Positions 4,041 through 34,416 of a stretch of DNA of 43,471 nucleotides are shown here, in pieces. This DNA is from a virus, in the IMG/VR virus record IMGVR_UViG_3300043465_000140, positions 1 through 43,471 of that record. The stretch is one strand, 5' to 3'. The translations under genes and the position numbers were made by a program. Position 1 is the first letter of the stretch, and every line of letters begins with the position of its first letter. The notes below the pieces were generated by a model, which ran no database searches, had not been told where the DNA came from, and saw only the letters and a program-made list of their open reading frames with translations.

Positions 4041-4215
4041 TGCAGTAATCAACCGCCACTACATCTTGCGCATCAATGTGGAACTGGCAGGGGTCATGAT
4101 TCACCACTACGAGGTGTACCGCAGGAAGGGGCGCAACTTCTTCCTGGAGTTCCAGAGCGAGGAGATCAACGATGACGCATTCAACGAGTGCGTAAAATTT
4201 GTACGTACAAAGTGA
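4000..4215 (+). CDS. Small phage protein, unknown (71 aa)
   Basis: A 71-residue frame overlapping the HNH gene by 41 bases and the next gene by 4 bases. It contains alternating hydrophobic strands (HYILRINVELAGVMIHHYEVY) and an acidic helix near the end. No family is recognised. Unit B has no copy, and there the HNH gene abuts the glycosyltransferase directly. The large overlap and absence in B lower my confidence slightly, but the downstream GTG start that uses its end argues for it. Confidence 0.55.
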   Translation: MKSTNTSYHGFTLDAVINRHYILRINVELAGVMIHHYEVYRRKGRNFFLEFQSEEINDDAFNECVKFVRTK

Positions 4216-4748
4216 TTCATATTGTAACCCCGTGTTCACGCCCAGAGATGCTGGGCTTTTTGCGTGAGAGCATCCCAGCCGAATGCAAGTGGACGGTGAT
4301 GCTGGATTTCTCAACCAGTAAGAGCAAGATCCCAAAAGGAATAAATGTAATCCGCTCCAACGTGGGTGGATGGTTCGGTCACCCACTGCGCAACATGGCG
4401 ATTGATTACCTACAAACCAGCGCAAGCCACAACGACTACGTGTACTTCCTGGACGATGACAACATAATCCACCCCGATTGGTACAATGCCGTCAAGGATT
4501 GCAATGAGGACTTCGTAAACTGGGCGCAGGTGTATCGCAATGGCCAACCCAGGCTGAACGCCACCGAATCGCCACGGGTAGGGAACATTGACACGGCATC
4601 GTTCATGATGAAGATAGGAACCATTGGCAAGAGCCGATTCCAAATGGCATACGAGGCGGATGGTCTATTTGCCCAGGCTATATACAAAAACGGCACGAAA
4701 CAAACTATAAATCAGTACCTTTGCTATTATAATTATTTGAGATCATGA
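4212..4748 (+). CDS. GT-A fold glycosyltransferase (family 2-like)
   Basis: A 178-residue nucleotide-sugar glycosyltransferase domain. The start is GTG 4212, giving MIHIVTPCSRPE, which matches the unit B homologue at 36143 (ATG, MIHIVTPCSRPE) and gives the same length. The core shows IRSN, NPLRN/HPLRN-type motifs, then YFLDDDNIIHP, whose DDD is the metal-binding DxD-like site near residue 85, and a conserved GNIDTAS. It is a minimal catalytic domain with no membrane segment. In unit A it opens the modification cluster, so the acceptor may be modified DNA bases (inference). Confidence 0.8.
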   Translation: MIHIVTPCSRPEMLGFLRESIPAECKWTVMLDFSTSKSKIPKGINVIRSNVGGWFGHPLRNMAIDYLQTSASHNDYVYFLDDDNIIHPDWYNAVKDCNEDFVNWAQVYRNGQPRLNATESPRVGNIDTASFMMKIGTIGKSRFQMAYEADGLFAQAIYKNGTKQTINQYLCYYNYLRS

Positions 4749-5323
4749 AAACTAGAAACGTACCCATTGGTGAAGTAATACCAAACCAGAGCAACCCCCG
4801 CATCATAAAAGATGACAAGTTCAAGAAGCTAGTTCAAAGCATCAAGGACTTCCCCCAAATGCTAGAGCTGCGTCCTATCGTGGTAGACATACACATGGTA
4901 GTGCTTGGTGGAAATATGCGCCTTAAAGCGTGCCAGGCGGCTGGATTGGTGGAAGTTCCCATCATCGTGGCAGAAAACCTCACCCTTAACCAGAGGCAGG
5001 AGTTCATCATTAAGGACAACGTAGGCTTCGGTGAATGGGACTGGGACATCTTGGCAAATGAATGGGAGGCAGCAGACCTTGACAAATGGGGGCTGGACGT
5101 TTGGCAGCCAGCGCAGGAGCCAGATTATTCAATTCTTGATGACGAGGATTTGAGTGACGAGCTTGCCGACATGGAGAGCGGTGTCAAGAAGGCCATCCAA
5201 ATTGAATTTGAAGCTGAACATTACGAGGAGGCTCAAGCACTGGTGAAGTTTTGGCGTGAGCGGGGTGCGTACCTGGGTGCCATGATTATTGAGTACTTAA
5301 AGGCCGAGAAGGATAAACTATGA
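4745..5323 (+). CDS. ParB-like nuclease/CTPase-domain protein
   Basis: A 192-residue protein with a ParB/Srx N-terminal domain: IPNQSNPR, a region of hydrophobic helix VQSIKDF, then RPIVVD and LGGNMRLKACQAAG (the GGxxR box, about residues 57-66). The C-terminus is acidic and has no DNA-partition features. Phage ParB-like proteins are often found beside DNA-modification enzymes and terminase genes, and this one is directly upstream of the TAGT-like and TET genes. It overlaps both neighbours by 4 bases. It is absent from the visible part of unit B. Confidence 0.85.
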   Translation: MKTRNVPIGEVIPNQSNPRIIKDDKFKKLVQSIKDFPQMLELRPIVVDIHMVVLGGNMRLKACQAAGLVEVPIIVAENLTLNQRQEFIIKDNVGFGEWDWDILANEWEAADLDKWGLDVWQPAQEPDYSILDDEDLSDELADMESGVKKAIQIEFEAEHYEEAQALVKFWRERGAYLGAMIIEYLKAEKDKL

Positions 5324-6054
5324 TTGCTTGCATACCAACCAAGAGCCGACCGACAACAAAGACATATCATTTGTTTGAGGAGGTTGGTATTAAAGCATTC
5401 CACTTTGTTGAGCCGCAAGAGTTTGACAAAAGCCCCCTGCCAAATAAAGTAAACATTCAAGAGAACAATCAAGGCATAGCTTATGTTCGCAACTTCATCG
5501 TTGAATGGGCAAAGCAAAACGGTGAGCAGTGGGTTATCATGTGCGATGATGATGTGAATCAGTTTGGCTTTTACAAAAATGGATTGAAGAACAAAGCGGG
5601 TGCAGGTATTTGGTTTGACATCAAGCAAAAGGCAGAGCAGCTCCCGTTTGAGATCTTTGGAATCAATTACCTTCAACATGCATGGCACGAAAAGAAGGCA
5701 TACTCAATCAACAAATCATTCATTGAGGTGTGTGTTCTGATGAATATTCAAAAGATAAATTGGCCATACCGCAAGGAGTTCAATCTGAAAGAGGATAGGG
5801 ATTTCGTATTGCAGGCAATAAAAAAAGGCAACGGTGTTGTGAAGTTTCACAAGCACTTCTACAACTGCCCAGCAGTCGGGACGAATAAGGGCGGTCTCCA
5901 AGGCGAATACCACGCCAAGCGTGATGAGGATTCCGCATACAAAATGTACTACGAATACGCACCACACACAAAGATTGTGAACAAGGATGGAAGGTTGGAT
6001 GTCAAAATTGATGTAGCAGCATACGCCACCCAAAACAAAAGGATAGTGAAATGA
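5320..6054 (+). CDS. TAGT-like glycosyltransferase (TET-associated), putative
   Basis: A 244-residue GT-A-type protein. It begins MIACIPTKSRP, has a G-I-A-Y-V-R-N-F segment near residue 52, and then MCDDDVNQF (residues 74-82), the likely metal and nucleotide-sugar site. A second conserved region has EDRDFVLQAI. It lies directly before the TET/JBP gene with a 4-base overlap. Published surveys of TET/JBP phages describe a TET-associated glycosyltransferase (TAGT) in this position, proposed to put sugars on hydroxymethylated cytosines. I place it there from the motifs and the location; a general family 2 enzyme is the alternative. Confidence 0.6.
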   Translation: MIACIPTKSRPTTKTYHLFEEVGIKAFHFVEPQEFDKSPLPNKVNIQENNQGIAYVRNFIVEWAKQNGEQWVIMCDDDVNQFGFYKNGLKNKAGAGIWFDIKQKAEQLPFEIFGINYLQHAWHEKKAYSINKSFIEVCVLMNIQKINWPYRKEFNLKEDRDFVLQAIKKGNGVVKFHKHFYNCPAVGTNKGGLQGEYHAKRDEDSAYKMYYEYAPHTKIVNKDGRLDVKIDVAAYATQNKRIVK

Positions 6055-6836
6055 AAAAAGTAGAACTCGTGCAGATTCAACACGGAGTAAAGATTGGGGA
6101 CATCTGCCCTCAACTGCCACCGAACATAACGGAGGACTGTGTATTTACTTACCAGGGAGTTCCAATAGGGTTCTACATGCGCAGCCTCACGGAAAAGGGA
6201 AAGCAGCTGGCACATATAGCCAATACCGAACTGCGCACCAGCCGAGTGCCAAAGTCTGTAATGGATAGGAAACGCCCCCTGGGCGAGGATGAGAATGGTA
6301 AAAAGCAATATCTTGTTGTTTCGCAGTACTCTACCATTATTGGCAGCGTGCCCCCGAAGCCCCACATGCGCAGGCCATACCCAACCATAAGCAGCGTGCA
6401 TGGCGTGAAGTCAGCAAGCACCTTCATCAAGGCGATGTTGATGCTATGCAAGGAATCAGAAAGCATGATCCGAGATATAATGCCAGAACAATACGAAGCC
6501 CAAAAGAAGCTGCTAGAAAAGACCGACAAGAAATGGAGGTTCGGTGAGTTGTTTACCAGCAGCATTTCCAACTACAACATACCAGCCCCGTATCACCGTG
6601 ATGCAGCCAACATCATAGGAGCGGTAAACGTAATCATCACCAAGCGGGAGAATAGCATTGGAGGCAATCTGAACGTCCCTGACTATGGTGCTACAATAGA
6701 CCAGTGCGACAACTCAATATTGGTGTACCCTGCGTGGCGGAACGTGCATGGCGTTACCCCCATTGAACCAACCAAAGAGGGGGGCTATCGTAATTCATTG
6801 GTATTCTATCCACTTAAATCTTTTGAAAATGTCTAA
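6051..6836 (+). CDS. TET/JBP-family 2-oxoglutarate/Fe(II) dioxygenase
   Basis: A 261-residue protein carrying the double-stranded beta-helix signature of the TET/JBP dioxygenases. The iron ligands are H182 and D184 in PAPYHRDAAN and H233 in VHGVTPI, and the 2-oxoglutarate arginine is R247 in GGYRNSLVFY. A GGNLNVPDYG turn lies between them, as expected. TET enzymes oxidise 5-methylcytosine to 5-hydroxymethylcytosine. It sits between the TAGT-like gene and terminase, so it likely acts on phage DNA before packaging. No cytosine methyltransferase is visible in unit A, so the methylated substrate must come from elsewhere. Confidence 0.85.
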   Translation: MKKVELVQIQHGVKIGDICPQLPPNITEDCVFTYQGVPIGFYMRSLTEKGKQLAHIANTELRTSRVPKSVMDRKRPLGEDENGKKQYLVVSQYSTIIGSVPPKPHMRRPYPTISSVHGVKSASTFIKAMLMLCKESESMIRDIMPEQYEAQKKLLEKTDKKWRFGELFTSSISNYNIPAPYHRDAANIIGAVNVIITKRENSIGGNLNVPDYGATIDQCDNSILVYPAWRNVHGVTPIEPTKEGGYRNSLVFYPLKSFENV

Positions 6837-7179
6837 CAAAATTGAACACAGTAAAAGGGCATTGATTGAAGCCATGGAGGCTTCCTTGGGTGTGGTGACC
6901 ACCGCCTGCAAAAAGGTTGGCATCAGTCGAACTACTTTTTACGATTACTACAAAACGGACGAATCGTTCAAAAAGCACATTGATGAAATTGATTCAGTTG
7001 CCCTGGACTTTGCGGAAAGCCAACTGCATGCGCAAATAATGAAAGGCAACACGGCAGCGACTATCTTTTACTTGAAGACAAAGGGCAAGAAGCGTGGATA
7101 TATAGAGAGGACTGAACTGGACGTGTCTGGCTACAAACAATTTGAGGTAGAGGTAGTTGACACGGATCCGAACGAATAA
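6829..7179 (+). CDS. Terminase small subunit (HTH type)
   Basis: A 116-residue protein starting at ATG 6829 (MSNKIEHSKRALIEAME), 8 bases before the stop of the TET gene. It has a helix-turn-helix (GVVTTACKKVGISRTTFYDY) followed by a helical region QLHAQIMKGNTAATIFYLK, the layout seen in many Bacteroidota phage small terminases. It would bind the packaging site on phage DNA. The large subunit overlaps it by 23 bases. The unit B small terminase at 38197 is a different family. Confidence 0.85.
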   Translation: MSNKIEHSKRALIEAMEASLGVVTTACKKVGISRTTFYDYYKTDESFKKHIDEIDSVALDFAESQLHAQIMKGNTAATIFYLKTKGKKRGYIERTELDVSGYKQFEVEVVDTDPNE

Positions 7180-8314
7180 GGTCTTCAAGCACCTGCTCAA
7201 GAGCGACAAGCGCATCACAGTTGAGCAAGGGGGAACTCGGAGCGGGAAGACGTACAACATCCTGCTCTGGGTTATTTTCCATTACTGCGCTACCAACACG
7301 GGCAAGGTGGTGACCATCTGCCGTAAGACCTTCCCTTCCCTGCGTGCGTCCGTGATGCGGGACTTCTTGGAGATCCTGCGGGCGCATGACTTATACCGAG
7401 AGGAGAACCACAACATGAGCAGCCACGAGTACCACCTCAATGGCAACATGATTGAGTTCATCTCCCTTGACCAACCGCAAAAGATACGGGGACGCAAGCG
7501 CAACATGCTATACATCAATGAGGCCAACGAGTTGTTTTACGAGGATTGGCAGCAGCTCATCTTCCGAACGGATGGCAAGATCGTATTGGACTACAATCCC
7601 TCCGACACGTTTCACTGGATCTACGACCGAGTAATCCCACGAGAGGACTGCGACTTCTACCAAACCACGTACCTAGACAATCCCTTCCTGGATCAAATCA
7701 TAGTAGAGGAGATTGAACGCCTGCGTGATACCGATGAGGACTACTGGCGGGTATATGGATTGGGAGAACGGGGAAGCAACCGTGCTGCCATCTTCTCATT
7801 CACCACGGGGGAGATCCCCACAGACGCAAAACTATTAGCATATGGAATGGACTTCGGGTACACAAACGACCCCAGCACATTGGTGGGTGTGTACGAGCAC
7901 GGCAACAATCTGTACATGGACGAGTACATATACCAGACGGGAATGACGAACAGGGACATACACAACACCCTTGCCTCGCTTGGATTGGATAGACGTGCCG
8001 AAATCTTTGCGGACAGTGCCGAGCCCAAATCAATTGACGAGCTGCACAAGTTCGGGTGGAACGTGAAGCCCACCTTGAAGGGAGCGGATAGCGTGATGGC
8101 AGGCATCGACCAACTCAAGCGGTTCAAGTTGGTGGTGACACCACGAAGCAAGAACCTAGTCAAAGAATTGCAGAACTACAAATGGGTAGAGGACAAGAAT
8201 GGGAACCTACTCAACAAACCGATTGACGCATTCAACCACGCCATTGACGCTGCCCGCTATGCGGTGTTCAACAAGAAGGCAAACCCTAACTTTGGCAGAT
8301 ATTCACTACGATGA
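7157..8314 (+). CDS. terL: Terminase large subunit
   Basis: A 385-residue motor/nuclease protein. The N-terminal ATPase has Walker A GGTRSGKT (residues 25-32) and Walker B MLYINEAN (117-124). The C-terminal nuclease region has GMDFGYTND, a DSAEPKSIDELHKFGW segment and HAIDAARYAV. Together these drive DNA into the procapsid and cut it. The first codon appears to be TTG 7157, within the small-subunit gene; the unit B homologue also starts with TTG in the same relation. The two proteins are clearly homologous along their length. Confidence 0.95.
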   Translation: MTRIRTNKVFKHLLKSDKRITVEQGGTRSGKTYNILLWVIFHYCATNTGKVVTICRKTFPSLRASVMRDFLEILRAHDLYREENHNMSSHEYHLNGNMIEFISLDQPQKIRGRKRNMLYINEANELFYEDWQQLIFRTDGKIVLDYNPSDTFHWIYDRVIPREDCDFYQTTYLDNPFLDQIIVEEIERLRDTDEDYWRVYGLGERGSNRAAIFSFTTGEIPTDAKLLAYGMDFGYTNDPSTLVGVYEHGNNLYMDEYIYQTGMTNRDIHNTLASLGLDRRAEIFADSAEPKSIDELHKFGWNVKPTLKGADSVMAGIDQLKRFKLVVTPRSKNLVKELQNYKWVEDKNGNLLNKPIDAFNHAIDAARYAVFNKKANPNFGRYSLR

Positions 8315-9234
8315 TATTAGTAATTGGAAACCCAAACGGGGTATTTTACCACCGCCTCCAGGTGCCGTACGAGGACATGCTGATGCGGGGCTACATGGTC
8401 AAGTTCGGAACCATTGAGGATCTGGACAAATTGAAGGAACACGTTTCGTACCTCGTGGTCAACCGAGGCATTGCCTCAAAAGACCATCGGCAGTTCCGTG
8501 CGATGCTGAACGCATACAACATCAAGTTGATTTTGGACATTGACGATTGGTGGAACCTACCCCACAACCACTCCAGCAAGAGCCAGGTGAAGGGAACGCA
8601 CATCATCAACACCATCAAGATCGCAGATCAGTTGCACACGACCAACGGCTACCTGGCAGAGAAGCTGCAAAAGATCAACCCGTACGTGCCTATCTGGATT
8701 CTGCCCAACGCCATTGATCCCAGACGGGAGCAGTGGATGGGAGAGAAGACCCAGAGCGACACGTTACGTGTTGGCTACCTGGGTGCCTTGCATCATGACT
8801 ACGACCTGCAATGGAACGGCATCGACTTATCAGGCCACGAGTCGTGGTCGATTGAATACTACCAACAAGCGATTCACACAAAGCACGCATTTGAGCGAAA
8901 GGACTACACCACGTACGGTGAATTGTATCGGGGTATTGACGTGGCCATCGCACCATTGGCACCTACCGAGTTCAACCGATGCAAGTCCAACCTCAAAGCG
9001 TTGGAGGCAGGGTTCACGAAGACGTGCCTGATAGCGCAGGATATGCACCCATATACGCCATTCCTGAACTCCACCAATTCAATCCTTTGCAAGACGGCAT
9101 ACGATTGGAAAGAAGCCCTGGAAACAATCACCCCAGAGGTGGCACGGGGATTGGCGGAGCAGTTGTACGAGGACGTGCAATTCTTCCATATTGATAATAT
9201 CAACAACACCCGAGAAAAATGCTTCGAAGAATAA
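8311..9234 (+). CDS. Glycosyltransferase, GT-B type (family 4-like)
   Basis: A 307-residue protein resembling GT-B glycosyltransferases (family 4). Features: GVFYHR near the start, LDIDDWWNLP (about residues 72-81), ILPNAIDP, GYLGALHH, and FNRCKSNLKALEAG near the C-terminus, the region that carries the sugar-nucleotide site. The homologue at 36676-37641 lies before the terminase in unit B, whereas this copy lies after it, so the gene has moved. It could glycosylate DNA bases or particle proteins; the sequence does not decide this. It overlaps terL by 4 bases. Confidence 0.8.
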   Translation: MILVIGNPNGVFYHRLQVPYEDMLMRGYMVKFGTIEDLDKLKEHVSYLVVNRGIASKDHRQFRAMLNAYNIKLILDIDDWWNLPHNHSSKSQVKGTHIINTIKIADQLHTTNGYLAEKLQKINPYVPIWILPNAIDPRREQWMGEKTQSDTLRVGYLGALHHDYDLQWNGIDLSGHESWSIEYYQQAIHTKHAFERKDYTTYGELYRGIDVAIAPLAPTEFNRCKSNLKALEAGFTKTCLIAQDMHPYTPFLNSTNSILCKTAYDWKEALETITPEVARGLAEQLYEDVQFFHIDNINNTREKCFEE

Positions 9235-25380: not shown

Positions 25381-25673
25381 TGGAATACCGCAAATACGCC
25401 TGGCCTACCGAAGGCCAGTTCATCACCGATATGCTCGGAGCAGGATTCGCCACGATGGAAGAAGACCAAATCACGTTTGTTGATTGCTTCGTTCATCAAA
25501 TCGGAACCGTTGAATCTGACCCCCGTTGGGCGGTGGACATCATTTGGGTAGCACCATCCGAATTCCAACAATACGTTGTGTGGCCAACGCCAGGTAGTGC
25601 CGTGCATTGGTTTGCGGGATGGGAGGCGAATTACGCAGCAGCATACGAACAACACAACCCGACAGTAGAGTGA
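25380..25673 (+). CDS. Small conserved phage protein after the fibre gene (97 aa)
   Basis: A 97-residue protein starting in the last base of the fibre gene, with a GFATMEEDQITFVDCFVHQ segment and DPRWAVDIIWVAP. I recognise no family, but such Trp- and Asp-rich small proteins often follow tail fibre genes in Bacteroidota phages and may be fibre assembly factors. The 3' end overlaps the next gene by 4 bases. Confidence 0.6.
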   Translation: MEYRKYAWPTEGQFITDMLGAGFATMEEDQITFVDCFVHQIGTVESDPRWAVDIIWVAPSEFQQYVVWPTPGSAVHWFAGWEANYAAAYEQHNPTVE

Positions 25674-25831
25674 AGCACGATAGTACAAGCGCAGTAGCGA
25701 CAAGTTGGAGTTTGGCCGTAGGTGGGTTGACGTTGGCCGAGGTGCATCAGATAGCGGGTTTGTTTGTGATGCTGACCTCGTTCGTGTACACCCTTTGGAG
25801 GTGGAACCGAGACGTAAAGAACAATCAATGA
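25670..25831 (+). CDS. Holin-like small membrane protein (53 aa)
   Basis: GTG 25670 overlaps the previous stop. The product has a polar N-terminus (KHDSTSAVATSW), a single hydrophobic helix (HQIAGLFVMLTSFVYTLWRW) and a charged C-terminus. It is followed by a second membrane protein with a 4-base overlap. This arrangement is typical of holin-type genes in phage lysis cassettes, but the function is inferred from position. Confidence 0.6.
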   Translation: MKHDSTSAVATSWSLAVGGLTLAEVHQIAGLFVMLTSFVYTLWRWNRDVKNNQ

Positions 25832-25995
25832 TTGAACGCATCTTTCGCAACTGGAAGACCACCGTCTTCGGCATCGTGCTGATATTGTTCGGGGGTGGGT
25901 TGGTATGGTTTGAAAAGGCCAGCCTTGCCGAGTTCAGTGCGTTCTTGATGGGAGGGTTTGCGCTGATGATGACGAAGGACGGAGAGAAGAAGTGA
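25828..25995 (+). CDS. Holin-like small membrane protein (55 aa)
   Basis: ATG 25828 follows the previous gene with a 4-base overlap. The 55-residue product begins MIERIFRNWKTTVFG and has two hydrophobic stretches (GIVLILFGGGLVWF and FSAFLMGGFALMM) with a charged end. It is likely part of a holin or holin/antiholin pair. The endolysin gene follows at 26092. Confidence 0.6.
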   Translation: MIERIFRNWKTTVFGIVLILFGGGLVWFEKASLAEFSAFLMGGFALMMTKDGEKK

Positions 25996-26049
25996 TAAAA
26001 TCCCATATAGCGGATGATTTCCTACCAAAAAGTGCGATATAAGACACGT

Positions 26050-26072
26050 TAACTCGTAAATTGTTAGAGTTA
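26050..26072. repeat. Short inverted repeat in the gap before the endolysin gene
   Basis: TAACTC (26050-26055) and GAGTTA (26067-26072) are separated by 11 bases. The gap 25996-26091 holds no gene. The structure could be an operator or a weak hairpin. No T tract follows, so a terminator is unlikely. Confidence 0.35.
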
Positions 26073-26091
26073 CTGCATAAAATTTATCAAG

Positions 26092-26520
26092 ATGAAACTA
26101 TCAAACAACTTTAGCCTAAGCGAGTTCGTAAGAACCGAAACAGGTTTACCGAACCGCCCGGCTCAAGAGGCGATTGCCAACCTTAAGTATTTGGCGCAAT
26201 ACGTCCTGCAACCCGCCCGAGACAAGTTCGGCCCTATTGAAGTCACAAGCGGCTACCGCTCGTCTGAGGTAAATGCTGCCGTAGGTGGTTCGGCAACAAG
26301 CGACCACCTATTCGGAAGAGCTGCGGACATCCAATGCGAGGATATGGCAGCCGTATTTAACTACATACGCAAATACACGCATTTTAAGCAACTCATTTGG
26401 GAATTTGGTACAGATAGTCAACCTGCGTGGATTCACGTCTCCTACGAGCTTAATAACAACCGAGGACAAGTTTTAAAAGCAATCAAGAAAAATGGCAAAA
26501 CCAAATACATCAAATTTTGA
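26092..26520 (+). CDS. Endolysin, M15-family peptidase
   Basis: A 142-residue M15-type D-Ala-D-Ala carboxypeptidase/endopeptidase. Zinc ligands are H72 and D79 in SDHLFGRAADI and H115 in PAWIHVSY, in the standard order. The N-terminus (NFSLSEFVRTE) is the usual M15 lead segment. It would cut peptidoglycan stem peptides and release progeny. No signal peptide is seen, so it needs the membrane proteins nearby to reach the wall. It overlaps the next gene region by only a few bases. Confidence 0.9.
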   Translation: MKLSNNFSLSEFVRTETGLPNRPAQEAIANLKYLAQYVLQPARDKFGPIEVTSGYRSSEVNAAVGGSATSDHLFGRAADIQCEDMAAVFNYIRKYTHFKQLIWEFGTDSQPAWIHVSYELNNNRGQVLKAIKKNGKTKYIKF

Positions 26521-26531
26521 AAGTTGGCTTA

Positions 26532-26945
26532 ATGAACTCGAAGACGTACCCACACCCCCTGCTTGTTCTATTAATAGCCCTGATTGCGAGTCTTGCTCTG
26601 GGTAGTTGTTCAGCCGATTGGCATCTTCGCCAAGCCGTAAAGAAAGGAGCTAATGTTTATGTACAGAAATGGGACACCACTATTGTCACAAGGGAACGCA
26701 AGATTGTTGATACAGTATTGCTACCGAAGTGGGATAGCGTGGTTATCAACAAGGATAGAATCTCGGTCAAGTTGGTGAGACGTGTTGACACTATCCGTGT
26801 TAGCGCAACTTGCCAGAGCGACACCGTACAGGTGACGAAGTACATCCGCCAGAAGGTCTCCGTCCCAGACAAGAAGTCTGTTTTTTGGCAAGTAGTGATT
26901 ATTATTGGCTTGTTGGTTGGACTTACTGCCCTAATAAAGCGATAG
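26532..26945 (+). CDS. Lipoprotein with C-terminal membrane helix, spanin-like (putative)
   Basis: Starts at ATG 26532 (MNSKTYPHPLLVLLIALIA); an earlier TTG at 26517 is in frame. A signal peptide with a lipobox (LALGSC, Cys at about residue 26) is followed by a polar, Lys- and Asp-rich region and a C-terminal hydrophobic helix (VFWQVVIIIGLLVGLTALI). This two-ended membrane layout resembles unimolecular spanins, which disrupt the outer membrane at lysis. The gene follows the endolysin, consistent with this. Function is inferred. Confidence 0.6.
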   Translation: MNSKTYPHPLLVLLIALIASLALGSCSADWHLRQAVKKGANVYVQKWDTTIVTRERKIVDTVLLPKWDSVVINKDRISVKLVRRVDTIRVSATCQSDTVQVTKYIRQKVSVPDKKSVFWQVVIIIGLLVGLTALIKR

Positions 26946-27060
26946 AGGTGCTTTATATGCATTCTAATGCACTTTATACCAAAAGTGGTACATTGATATG
27001 CCTTGACATATAAAAGTGTCTTAAATCAAAGATTTTCTTTTATTTTTAATTTTAGTCAAG

Positions 27061-32857: not shown

Positions 32858-33019
32858 ATGACAACAGTTGAATATATGTACCTCCTTGTAAAGGAGTACG
32901 GTCTGGACATCCCTAAAGAGGAAATGGACAAGGCAATTAACTTCGAGTCAATGCGTATGGATATTGCATTTAACAAAGCTACTGTGGAAGCACACGAGCA
33001 ACTAAGAAAGATGCTATGA
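32858..33019 (+). CDS. Small protein before the methyltransferase (53 aa)
   Basis: A 53-residue frame from ATG 32858 (MTTVEYMYLLVKEYG) to TGA 33017-33019, overlapping the next ATG. It is helical with an acidic centre and ends VEAHEQLRKML. It replaces the zinc-ribbon-like gene of unit A. The function is unknown. Confidence 0.6.
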   Translation: MTTVEYMYLLVKEYGLDIPKEEMDKAINFESMRMDIAFNKATVEAHEQLRKML

Positions 33020-34416
33020 AGATTAACCACCTTGACCTATTTAGTGGTATTGGCGGTTTCCACTTGGGATTCGAGCGAGCAGGATTCAAGATAAAATCCT
33101 ACTTCTCGGAGATTGACAAACACGCTATCGCAGTTTACAAACACAAATTTAAAGACGCAACTTATGTCGGTTCAGTCACAGATGTTCGAGGAGAAGACCT
33201 TCCACGAATTGACCTTATCACCTTTGGAAGTCCTTGCCAAGATTTCAGCCTTGCTGGAAAGCGTGCGGGGATGGGAGGAGACCGAAGCAGCCTTATCCTT
33301 GAAGCAATTCGACTTGTGCGGGAATGCCGACCAAGAGTTTTTATCTGGGAAAATGTTAAAGGGGCATTCAGTTCAAACTCTGGCGAAGACTTTGCGGCAA
33401 TCATCCAAGAGTTTGCCGACATTGGGGGCTATCGACTTGAATGGCAATTGCTTAATACATCGTGGTTTCTACCCCAAAATAGAGAGCGGATATACCTTGT
33501 CGGATATTCTACAACCCCAAAGCGAGGTTGGAGAGGAGTTTTTCCTATCAGAGAAAGCGGTGAGCAAACTAATTTAAGGGGCATAAATTTAATAGCTACG
33601 TCTGAAAATGATGTGCAATCAAGGAGGGTATATGGCTCCGATGGAATAGCCAGAACTCTAACTTCGGGAGATTACAAATCACCAATGAGGGTTGAGGTAA
33701 AGCAAATAGGAACCCGCCTTGATTCTGGAGGCAAGCAACCATACCAACAGGACAGGATTTACGATTCAATAGGCCACGCCCCTGCGCTAAACGCAGGCAA
33801 GAGTGATTTGATTGTTGCTATGCGTGGAAGGTATAATGAAGACGGAAGTACAAGTCAACGACTTGAGTTAAATACTTCGGGTAAATCAAATACGCTTACC
33901 GTAGTCCAAAAAGACAATATGGTTATTCAACCAATGATTGGTATTGGTATTTACGGCAATAATAAAGAAAATCAATATCAAAAAAAGATTACAAGAGCTC
34001 TTGCTCTCAAGGCTTCCAATCAAACTAATCCAAGGAGCGGGGGAACGACTCTAATTGGAATCCAGCCTAACTACGATAGCAAAGCTCTAAATGAGACTAT
34101 TGAAAATAGCAACCTTATAGAAGGAGAACCGCAGGCACTTGACTTGTACAATCGTTTAGCAAGAGACGAATCCCCAACACTAACCGAACCTCACCACAAT
34201 TCTCTACGGATGTTTGACGGCTATCGCATCAGACGTCTCACCCCTATTGAGTGCGAACGCTTGCAGGGATTCCCTGATGACCACACCTCCTTTGGCAATT
34301 ACGATGGAGAGGTGAAGCCAGTAAGCAACACCCAACGCTACAAGCAATGCGGAAATGCGGTGACTGTGAATGTCGTGGAAGCCGTAGCAAAAAAATGTAT
34401 ACCTTTATTCAAATGA
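33016..34416 (+). CDS. DNA (cytosine-5) methyltransferase
   Basis: A 466-residue C5 methyltransferase. Motif I is LDLFSGIGGFHLGF (AdoMet binding), motif IV GSPCQDF with catalytic C74, motif VI ENV at 112-114, motif VIII QNRERIYLVGY at 154-164, and motif X QCGNAVTV at the C-terminus. The region between VIII and IX (about 170-400), the target-recognition domain, is unusually long and shows imperfect repeats. ATG 33016 overlaps the preceding stop. It would mark cytosines in phage DNA. Unit A has no copy in the window. The DNA in the central part is richer in A and T than the flanks. Confidence 0.9.
   Translation: MKINHLDLFSGIGGFHLGFERAGFKIKSYFSEIDKHAIAVYKHKFKDATYVGSVTDVRGEDLPRIDLITFGSPCQDFSLAGKRAGMGGDRSSLILEAIRLVRECRPRVFIWENVKGAFSSNSGEDFAAIIQEFADIGGYRLEWQLLNTSWFLPQNRERIYLVGYSTTPKRGWRGVFPIRESGEQTNLRGINLIATSENDVQSRRVYGSDGIARTLTSGDYKSPMRVEVKQIGTRLDSGGKQPYQQDRIYDSIGHAPALNAGKSDLIVAMRGRYNEDGSTSQRLELNTSGKSNTLTVVQKDNMVIQPMIGIGIYGNNKENQYQKKITRALALKASNQTNPRSGGTTLIGIQPNYDSKALNETIENSNLIEGEPQALDLYNRLARDESPTLTEPHHNSLRMFDGYRIRRLTPIECERLQGFPDDHTSFGNYDGEVKPVSNTQRYKQCGNAVTVNVVEAVAKKCIPLFK

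Follow-up and report, generated by a model that had tools for sequence, protein, structure and literature searches.

A TET/JBP dioxygenase and a TAGT glycosyltransferase as a probable allele of an exchangeable, ParB-linked DNA-hypermodification cassette in phages

The stretch of viral DNA analyzed here (43,471 nucleotides; IMG/VR record IMGVR_UViG_3300043465_000140, positions 1 to 43,471; hereafter, the window) consists of two phage-derived parts, units A and B. Unit A carries four consecutive plus-strand genes, each overlapping the next by four bases, that encode a small GT-A-like protein (4212..4748), a ParB-like protein (4745..5323), a TET-associated glycosyltransferase (TAGT) of the GT-A type (5320..6054), and a TET/JBP Fe(II)/2-oxoglutarate (2OG) dioxygenase, further called TET (6051..6836). 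Our main finding is that the block between parB and terS, the gene of the terminase small subunit, probably represents an allele of a DNA-hypermodification cassette that phages exchange. On this reading, TET would oxidize a pyrimidine of the phage DNA at its 5-methyl group, giving hydroxymethyl; the enzyme occupying the slot between ParB and TET, here TAGT, would add a sugar to the resulting hydroxyl; the constant N-domain of the ParB-like protein would bind DNA and possibly a nucleotide, and its TET-specific C-terminal tail would recruit TET. The modified phage DNA would most likely be protected against restriction, and an exchange of cassettes would alter the chemistry. This explanation, which we regard as probable as a whole, builds on sequence-derived protein families, catalytic residues, fold, gene order, exchange, and the association of the ParB tail with TET.

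The original prediction, made from the sequence alone, described four overlapping genes at 4212–6836; they are present as described, and the TET, TAGT, and ParB-like proteins score above the Pfam cut-offs. TET reaches 40.2 bits with Tet_JBP (PF12851; cut-off 34.9), and the residues named in that prediction, the HxD…H Fe(II) triad H182/D184/H233 and the 2OG-binding R247, proved correct, being invariant in alignments of both 45 and 138 relatives. N187, three residues past D184, is invariant too, and aligns with a TET2 residue that presumably lies near the base. Structure prediction, suggested earlier as a check, yielded a model (predicted local distance difference test score, pLDDT, 93.5) whose best matches in PDB are TET2 (E 2.2e-11, TMq 0.71), followed by CcTet, NgTET1, and CMD1, so that the modeled fold is a double-stranded beta-helix like that of TET enzymes. 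TET is thus predicted to oxidize 5-methylcytosine or thymine in DNA. In PHROGs (phrog_6059) and many RefSeq phage records, e.g., NC_020847, such proteins are labeled queuine tRNA-ribosyltransferase; this label looks wrong and we rejected it, as the phrog_6059 proteins are Tet_JBP proteins with a complete iron site.

TAGT scores 40.6 bits with its Pfam profile (PF20691; cut-off 27.5), and hence both profile searches proposed earlier gave matches above the cut-off. Its putative catalytic core comprises DDD at positions 76–78 and D159, with D77, D78, and D159 invariant among 15 aligned sequences, all 15 of which match the TAGT profile at E ≤ 0.01. By family membership, TAGT is predicted to transfer a sugar onto a hydroxymethyl base, and the suggested pairing of a viral TET with TAGT is supported.

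Relatives are encoded by 400 viral stretches and the gene order is conserved, which places the cluster far beyond chance. Among 163 loci (two TET searches plus two annotated records), ParB is present in 148 and TerL, the terminase large subunit, in 145, and where one of the two is missing, the locus mostly breaks off close to TET. Almost every complete locus has the order ParB–[slot]–TET–TerS–TerL, which extends from relatives in freshwater to phages of Prochlorococcus; it is conserved in Bacteroidota-type and Prochlorococcus phages and, more loosely, in actinobacterial phages. In the window, terS (6829..7179, plus strand; PHROG terminase small subunit) starts with ATG at 6829, overlapping the end of the TET gene, and is followed by terL (7157..8314, plus strand; PF04466, 83.1 bits; PF17288, 78.2 bits). 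Adjacency of the cluster to the terminase genes, as noted originally, therefore holds in most relatives. The further suggestion that modification occurs just before packaging was drawn from gene position; in phage P12024L, however, a related TET/TAGT cluster lies about 5 kb from TerL.

In cultured actinophages, gene 1 encodes ParB or a ParB-like protein and is followed by TET, modification genes, and terminase: ParB, TET, ADDT (81.6 bits), kinase, terminase in Tonitrus; ParB-like, TET, TAGT (131.2 bits), PIG-L deacetylase, kinase (206.6 bits), terminase in Suigeneris; and ParB, TET, kinase, terminase in Cinna. Against the ParB profile, the products of gene 1 score low (29.6 bits in Cinna, 14.1 in Tonitrus, 6.8 in Suigeneris); in Pfam, none of them reaches the cut-off. 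By eye, they show ParB-like NPR/NPK and GN/GGH motifs. The GlcNAc-type deacetylase (PIG-L) encoded after TAGT in Suigeneris (L345:2438-3022) suggests an amino sugar on the DNA of that phage. A scan of genome contigs for prophage carriers retrieved no relative, and hence no host is named.

The content of the slot varies. In 166 distinct loci with both ParB and TET, it holds an FkbM methyltransferase (87 loci), TAGT (34), nothing (22), another glycosyltransferase-like family with no Pfam match (11), or combinations of kinase, GATase, and ADDT (seven); rare variants include TAGT accompanied by HAD/nucleotidyltransferase-like genes or by a sulfotransferase. In a quickly built tree of 138 TETs with many weak branches, the slot changed at least 42 times (62.6 on average for shuffled data). 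Chemically, FkbM, kinase/ADDT, TAGT, and TAGT with sulfotransferase would all fit decoration of a hydroxymethyl acceptor. In one locus (L208:1684-2244), TAGT and then a sulfotransferase (PF03567, 60.3 bits) precede TET, a possible sign of a sulfated sugar on DNA.

Not only the slot but the whole block is exchanged. Phages whose TerL is 95–99% identical to that of unit A have other contents between parB codon ~118 and terS, the exchanged block corresponding to ~5.1–7.0 kb of the window. When the window is compared with unit-A-like loci that carry other cassettes, similarity at the nucleotide level ends within parB at 5067..5107 and resumes within terS exactly at 7006 in those loci that reach that far. 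The block contains ParB fused to an N4/N6 methyltransferase in L243 and L257, Mom in L248 (PF25680, 162.7 bits) and L251, a second TET type with TAGT in L246, TAGT and no TET in L249, L252, and L254, and ParB alone in L240, L241, L242, and L247. In the more distant L217 (TerL 82%), a deazaguanine set of TGT-like, QueD-, QueE-, and FolE-type (GTP cyclohydrolase I) genes lies between ParB and TerS (5875-8686). Two ParB–methyltransferase fusions, L243:5531-6742 and L234:4992-6197, are alike at the ends and differ in the center (TSPPYN vs. TDPPYN), so that the methyltransferase core has likely been exchanged. TAGT without TET lies in the same slot of the unit A backbone at L249:6115-6873 and L252:2913-3752.

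The original prediction overlooked the ParB-like protein as the constant element of the exchangeable cassette. This protein scores 29.7 bits with ParB_N (PF02195; cut-off 26.3), and its N-domain (residues ~1–96) matches ParB/Noc structures both by sequence (E 1e-8) and by Foldseek (3e-6). The resemblance to solved ParB proteins stops at about residues 96–109; the helix-turn-helix (HTH) DNA-binding and dimer domains that follow ParB_N in partition ParBs were not found, and the score with NCBIfam parB_part is 21.1 bits, below the cut-off of 58.45. The N-domain is constant across cassettes, and the ~60 C-terminal residues vary. A profile of the tail (residues ~127–192), trained on 71 TET-linked tails with cyanophage-type loci held out, matched 65 out of 65 ParBs from cyanophage-type TET loci (minimum 41.8 bits) and none out of 22 ParBs from TET-less loci. 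Ten TET-linked ParBs scored below 15 bits: five accompany the second TET type and have a tail of their own, and the remaining five carry divergent forms of the profiled tail. In the recombining group, distances between ParB tails correlate with TET distances (Spearman 0.47), as do those of FkbM (0.38), with lower values for the ParB N-domain (0.12), TerS (0.08), and TerL (−0.04), the compared pairs being non-independent; in the cyanophage-type group, all genes correlate with TET (0.50–0.72) and the test is uninformative. Taken together, these patterns suggest that the N-domain may serve DNA, and the tail, the enzyme.

These observations bear on a simpler account, in which parB and terS just flank a recombination hotspot and ParB and TET do not work together. 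Homology at both ends would suffice for exchange, ParB persists without an enzyme in L239, L241, and L247, and in phages without TET or with the second TET type, the TerS allele does not follow the cassette. However, the tail is specific to TET on Bacteroidota-type and cyanophage backbones alike, despite the exchange of the intervening gene, the ParB domain is also found fused to DNA methyltransferases, and ParB precedes TET in actinophages whose TET shows 25–33% identity. We consider this account unlikely.

Several points nevertheless weigh against a functional cassette with ParB as its recruiting component. The structure of the ParB-like protein was predicted with lower confidence (pLDDT 83, predicted template-modeling score 0.53). 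The gene is retained with nothing after it in the three phages just named, so that the protein may serve a separate function. Recruitment of TET by ParB would follow only from their association, and the slot neighbors could be a mere moron hotspot by the packaging genes. The reactions, the role of ParB, and protection are inferred, and no source of 5-methylcytosine was found in the sequenced part of unit A.

Coupling of TerS to the modification was considered as well. The HTH domain of TerS might read modified DNA at the site where packaging starts, since identity of the TerS N-domain is 75–85% among TET-containing phages with TerL identity of 73–88%, and 37–51% in TET-less phages with TerL identity of 94–99%; L217, with 64%, is the one TET-less phage outside the latter TerS range. 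The TerS HTH domain of unit A (window 6829-7179) accordingly resembles that of TET-containing phages, unlike that of phages with near-identical TerL. This pattern, however, is probably one event due to linkage. L246, with a different TET on the same backbone, has an ordinary TerS allele, and TerS distance does not track TET distance (rho 0.08). Both observations weaken a specific TerS–TET coupling, which we find improbable.

The window also encodes a C5-cytosine methyltransferase (33016..34416, plus strand; PF00145, 231.8 bits), a candidate source of the methylated base. The gene order of unit A recurs in unit B, with 68–81% DNA identity. Most of the window is tiled, at 99.6–100% identity, by four contigs from a single metagenome, 3300042867 (L002, 1-13756; L336, 15201-25634; L340, 27013-31325; L255, 31174-40017); L002 reaches 1563 bases beyond the upstream end of unit A, with a rep gene of its own, and the methyltransferase is carried by the separate L255. 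Similarity of the unit A type ends, and that of the unit B type begins, near 25.99 kb. By this comparison, units A and B are different phages joined at about 26 kb (window 25600-27000), either as a chimera or as a recombinant. Because the units tile as separate contigs and the similarity switches at this point, the methyltransferase belongs to unit B, and we rejected it as the source of 5-methylcytosine in unit A. PF00145 is absent from the sequenced part of unit A, in line with the original observation, part of this genome being missing; TET is absent from the sequenced part of unit B. Moreover, none of the 80 loci fetched with the unit B methyltransferase contains TET, only 12 of them also holding ParB. 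In TET-less phages, the methyltransferase is an optional gene just upstream of an exonuclease gene (window 33016-34416, L257:3199-4617).

As the substrate of TET, we give an even chance to host-supplied 5-methylcytosine, whereby TET oxidizes the base made by a C5-methyltransferase of the host or another phage, yielding glycosylated 5-hydroxymethylcytosine at the motif of that enzyme. Methylated cytosine is the substrate of those phage TETs that accompany C5-methyltransferases, according to the account of Burke 2021 in PMC12730594, and in a marine subset (L030, L034, L039, L049, L066; 64–68% identity over TET) the methyltransferase lies immediately upstream of ParB. The TET site is invariant, and no column in the alignment of 138 relatives separates methyltransferase-linked from unlinked TETs; hence, one substrate shared by both is likeliest. 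On the other hand, PF00145 was found in 11 of 95 records searched. It is missing from 18 out of 20 records that reach 30 kb or more and have TET of the main type, and from five out of five complete cultured phages (MED4-184, which is one of these records, and P12024L, Tonitrus, Suigeneris, and Cinna), which tells against the cytosine substrate assumed in the original prediction; most of the remaining records are fragments. Among phages with the unit A backbone, L239 and L257 encode the methyltransferase and lack TET.

The scarcity of C5-methyltransferases would be expected if a JBP-like TET converted thymine to 5-hydroxymethyluracil, to be glycosylated by TAGT, a bacterial-virus version of base J with no need for a methyltransferase. 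We see this as a serious possibility, though short of an even chance; any other substrate is improbable. ADDT of characterized phages builds on 5-hydroxymethyluracil, and the slot alternatives include ADDT (PF18724) with a kinase; such TET–ADDT pairs could equally use 5-hydroxymethylcytosine, and the methyltransferase-linked relatives share the same site residues. JBP1/2 oxidize thymine, and TET has been reported to be capable of this too (PMC11065753). A broader proposal, that methyltransferase-less TETs oxidize thymine to give base-J-like glycosyl-hydroxymethyluracil or, with FkbM, methoxymethyl-uracil, and that ParB with an enzyme-specific tail is a common targeting subunit for unrelated modifiers (TET, N4/N6 methyltransferase, Mom, deazaguanine) traded at the terminase-side slot, is rather doubtful when taken jointly.

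Two further glycosyltransferase genes lie on either side of the exchanged block. The start of the GT-A-like gene was set at GTG 4212 (the listed open reading frame begins at 4188; in unit B, the corresponding start is that of MIHIV). Its product scores 16.0 bits with the GT2 profile, below the cut-off of 23.3, and its LDDDN motif is preserved, with DDD (DDDN) invariant across nine aligned sequences. The TET cassette proper does not include this gene, which near-identical, unit-A-like phages without TET retain, as does unit B, and we rejected its membership in the TET pathway as unproven. A GT-B glycosyltransferase gene 3' of terL (8311..9234, plus strand; phrog_7162, 132 bits) is also found in TET-less relatives. 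Since both genes stay put when the cassette is exchanged, a role for them in the TET pathway is unlikely.

TET and TAGT are already known from phages, also as a pair. Phages with a C5-methyltransferase, TET, and glycosyltransferases are reported to make glycosylated cytosine (PMC12730594); the metagenomic clusters of Burke 2021 (doi 10.1073/pnas.2026742118), as described there, likewise combine TET/JBP with a glycosyltransferase and a predicted sugar on a hydroxymethyl base, whereas most members here have no C5-methyltransferase, ParB is a constant partner, and the slot often holds FkbM. The kinetoplastid base J system (JBP1/2 and JGT) similarly couples TET/JBP oxidation to a glycosyltransferase with no methyltransferase needed; it has no counterpart of the ParB partner and packaging-gene context, and the substrate here is predicted only. 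Phage T6 is not known to carry TET. Its beta-glucosyl-HMC-alpha-glucosyltransferase, a member of the same Pfam family PF20691 (PMC13216743) with the same invariant Asp motif as the window TAGT, adds a second glucose to glucosylated 5-hydroxymethylcytosine, whereas the window TAGT is the slot sugar transferase beside TET. Phage ParB–DNA methyltransferase fusions (phrog_498) have the same ParB_N-type domain at the same position before terS, but ParB of the TET cassettes is a separate protein with its own C-terminal tail. The gp1–gp6 region of Mycobacterium phage Suigeneris is alike in the order of ParB-like, TET, TAGT, kinase, and terminase genes, and differs in TET (31% identity over 64% of the query, labeled queuine tRNA-ribosyltransferase) and in the extra deacetylase. 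In the open literature that was searched, we found no ParB-anchored slot, FkbM alternative, or TET-specific ParB tail, parts of which Iyer 2013 and Burke 2021 may contain; a search on C5 methylation in Prochlorococcus returned nothing useful.

Thus, one phage backbone with varied modification cassettes behind one ParB-like domain forms a natural series, which makes testable both the substrate of phage TETs without an encoded C5-methyltransferase and the company that ParB domains keep with DNA-modifying enzymes. The same gene order is present in cultured phages, namely, Prochlorococcus MED4-184 and P-HS2, Mycobacterium Suigeneris, Microbacterium Cinna, and Rhodococcus Tonitrus, and therefore virion DNA can be measured directly. 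The slots with FkbM and sulfotransferase, in turn, predict DNA bases that, to our knowledge, have not been described so far.

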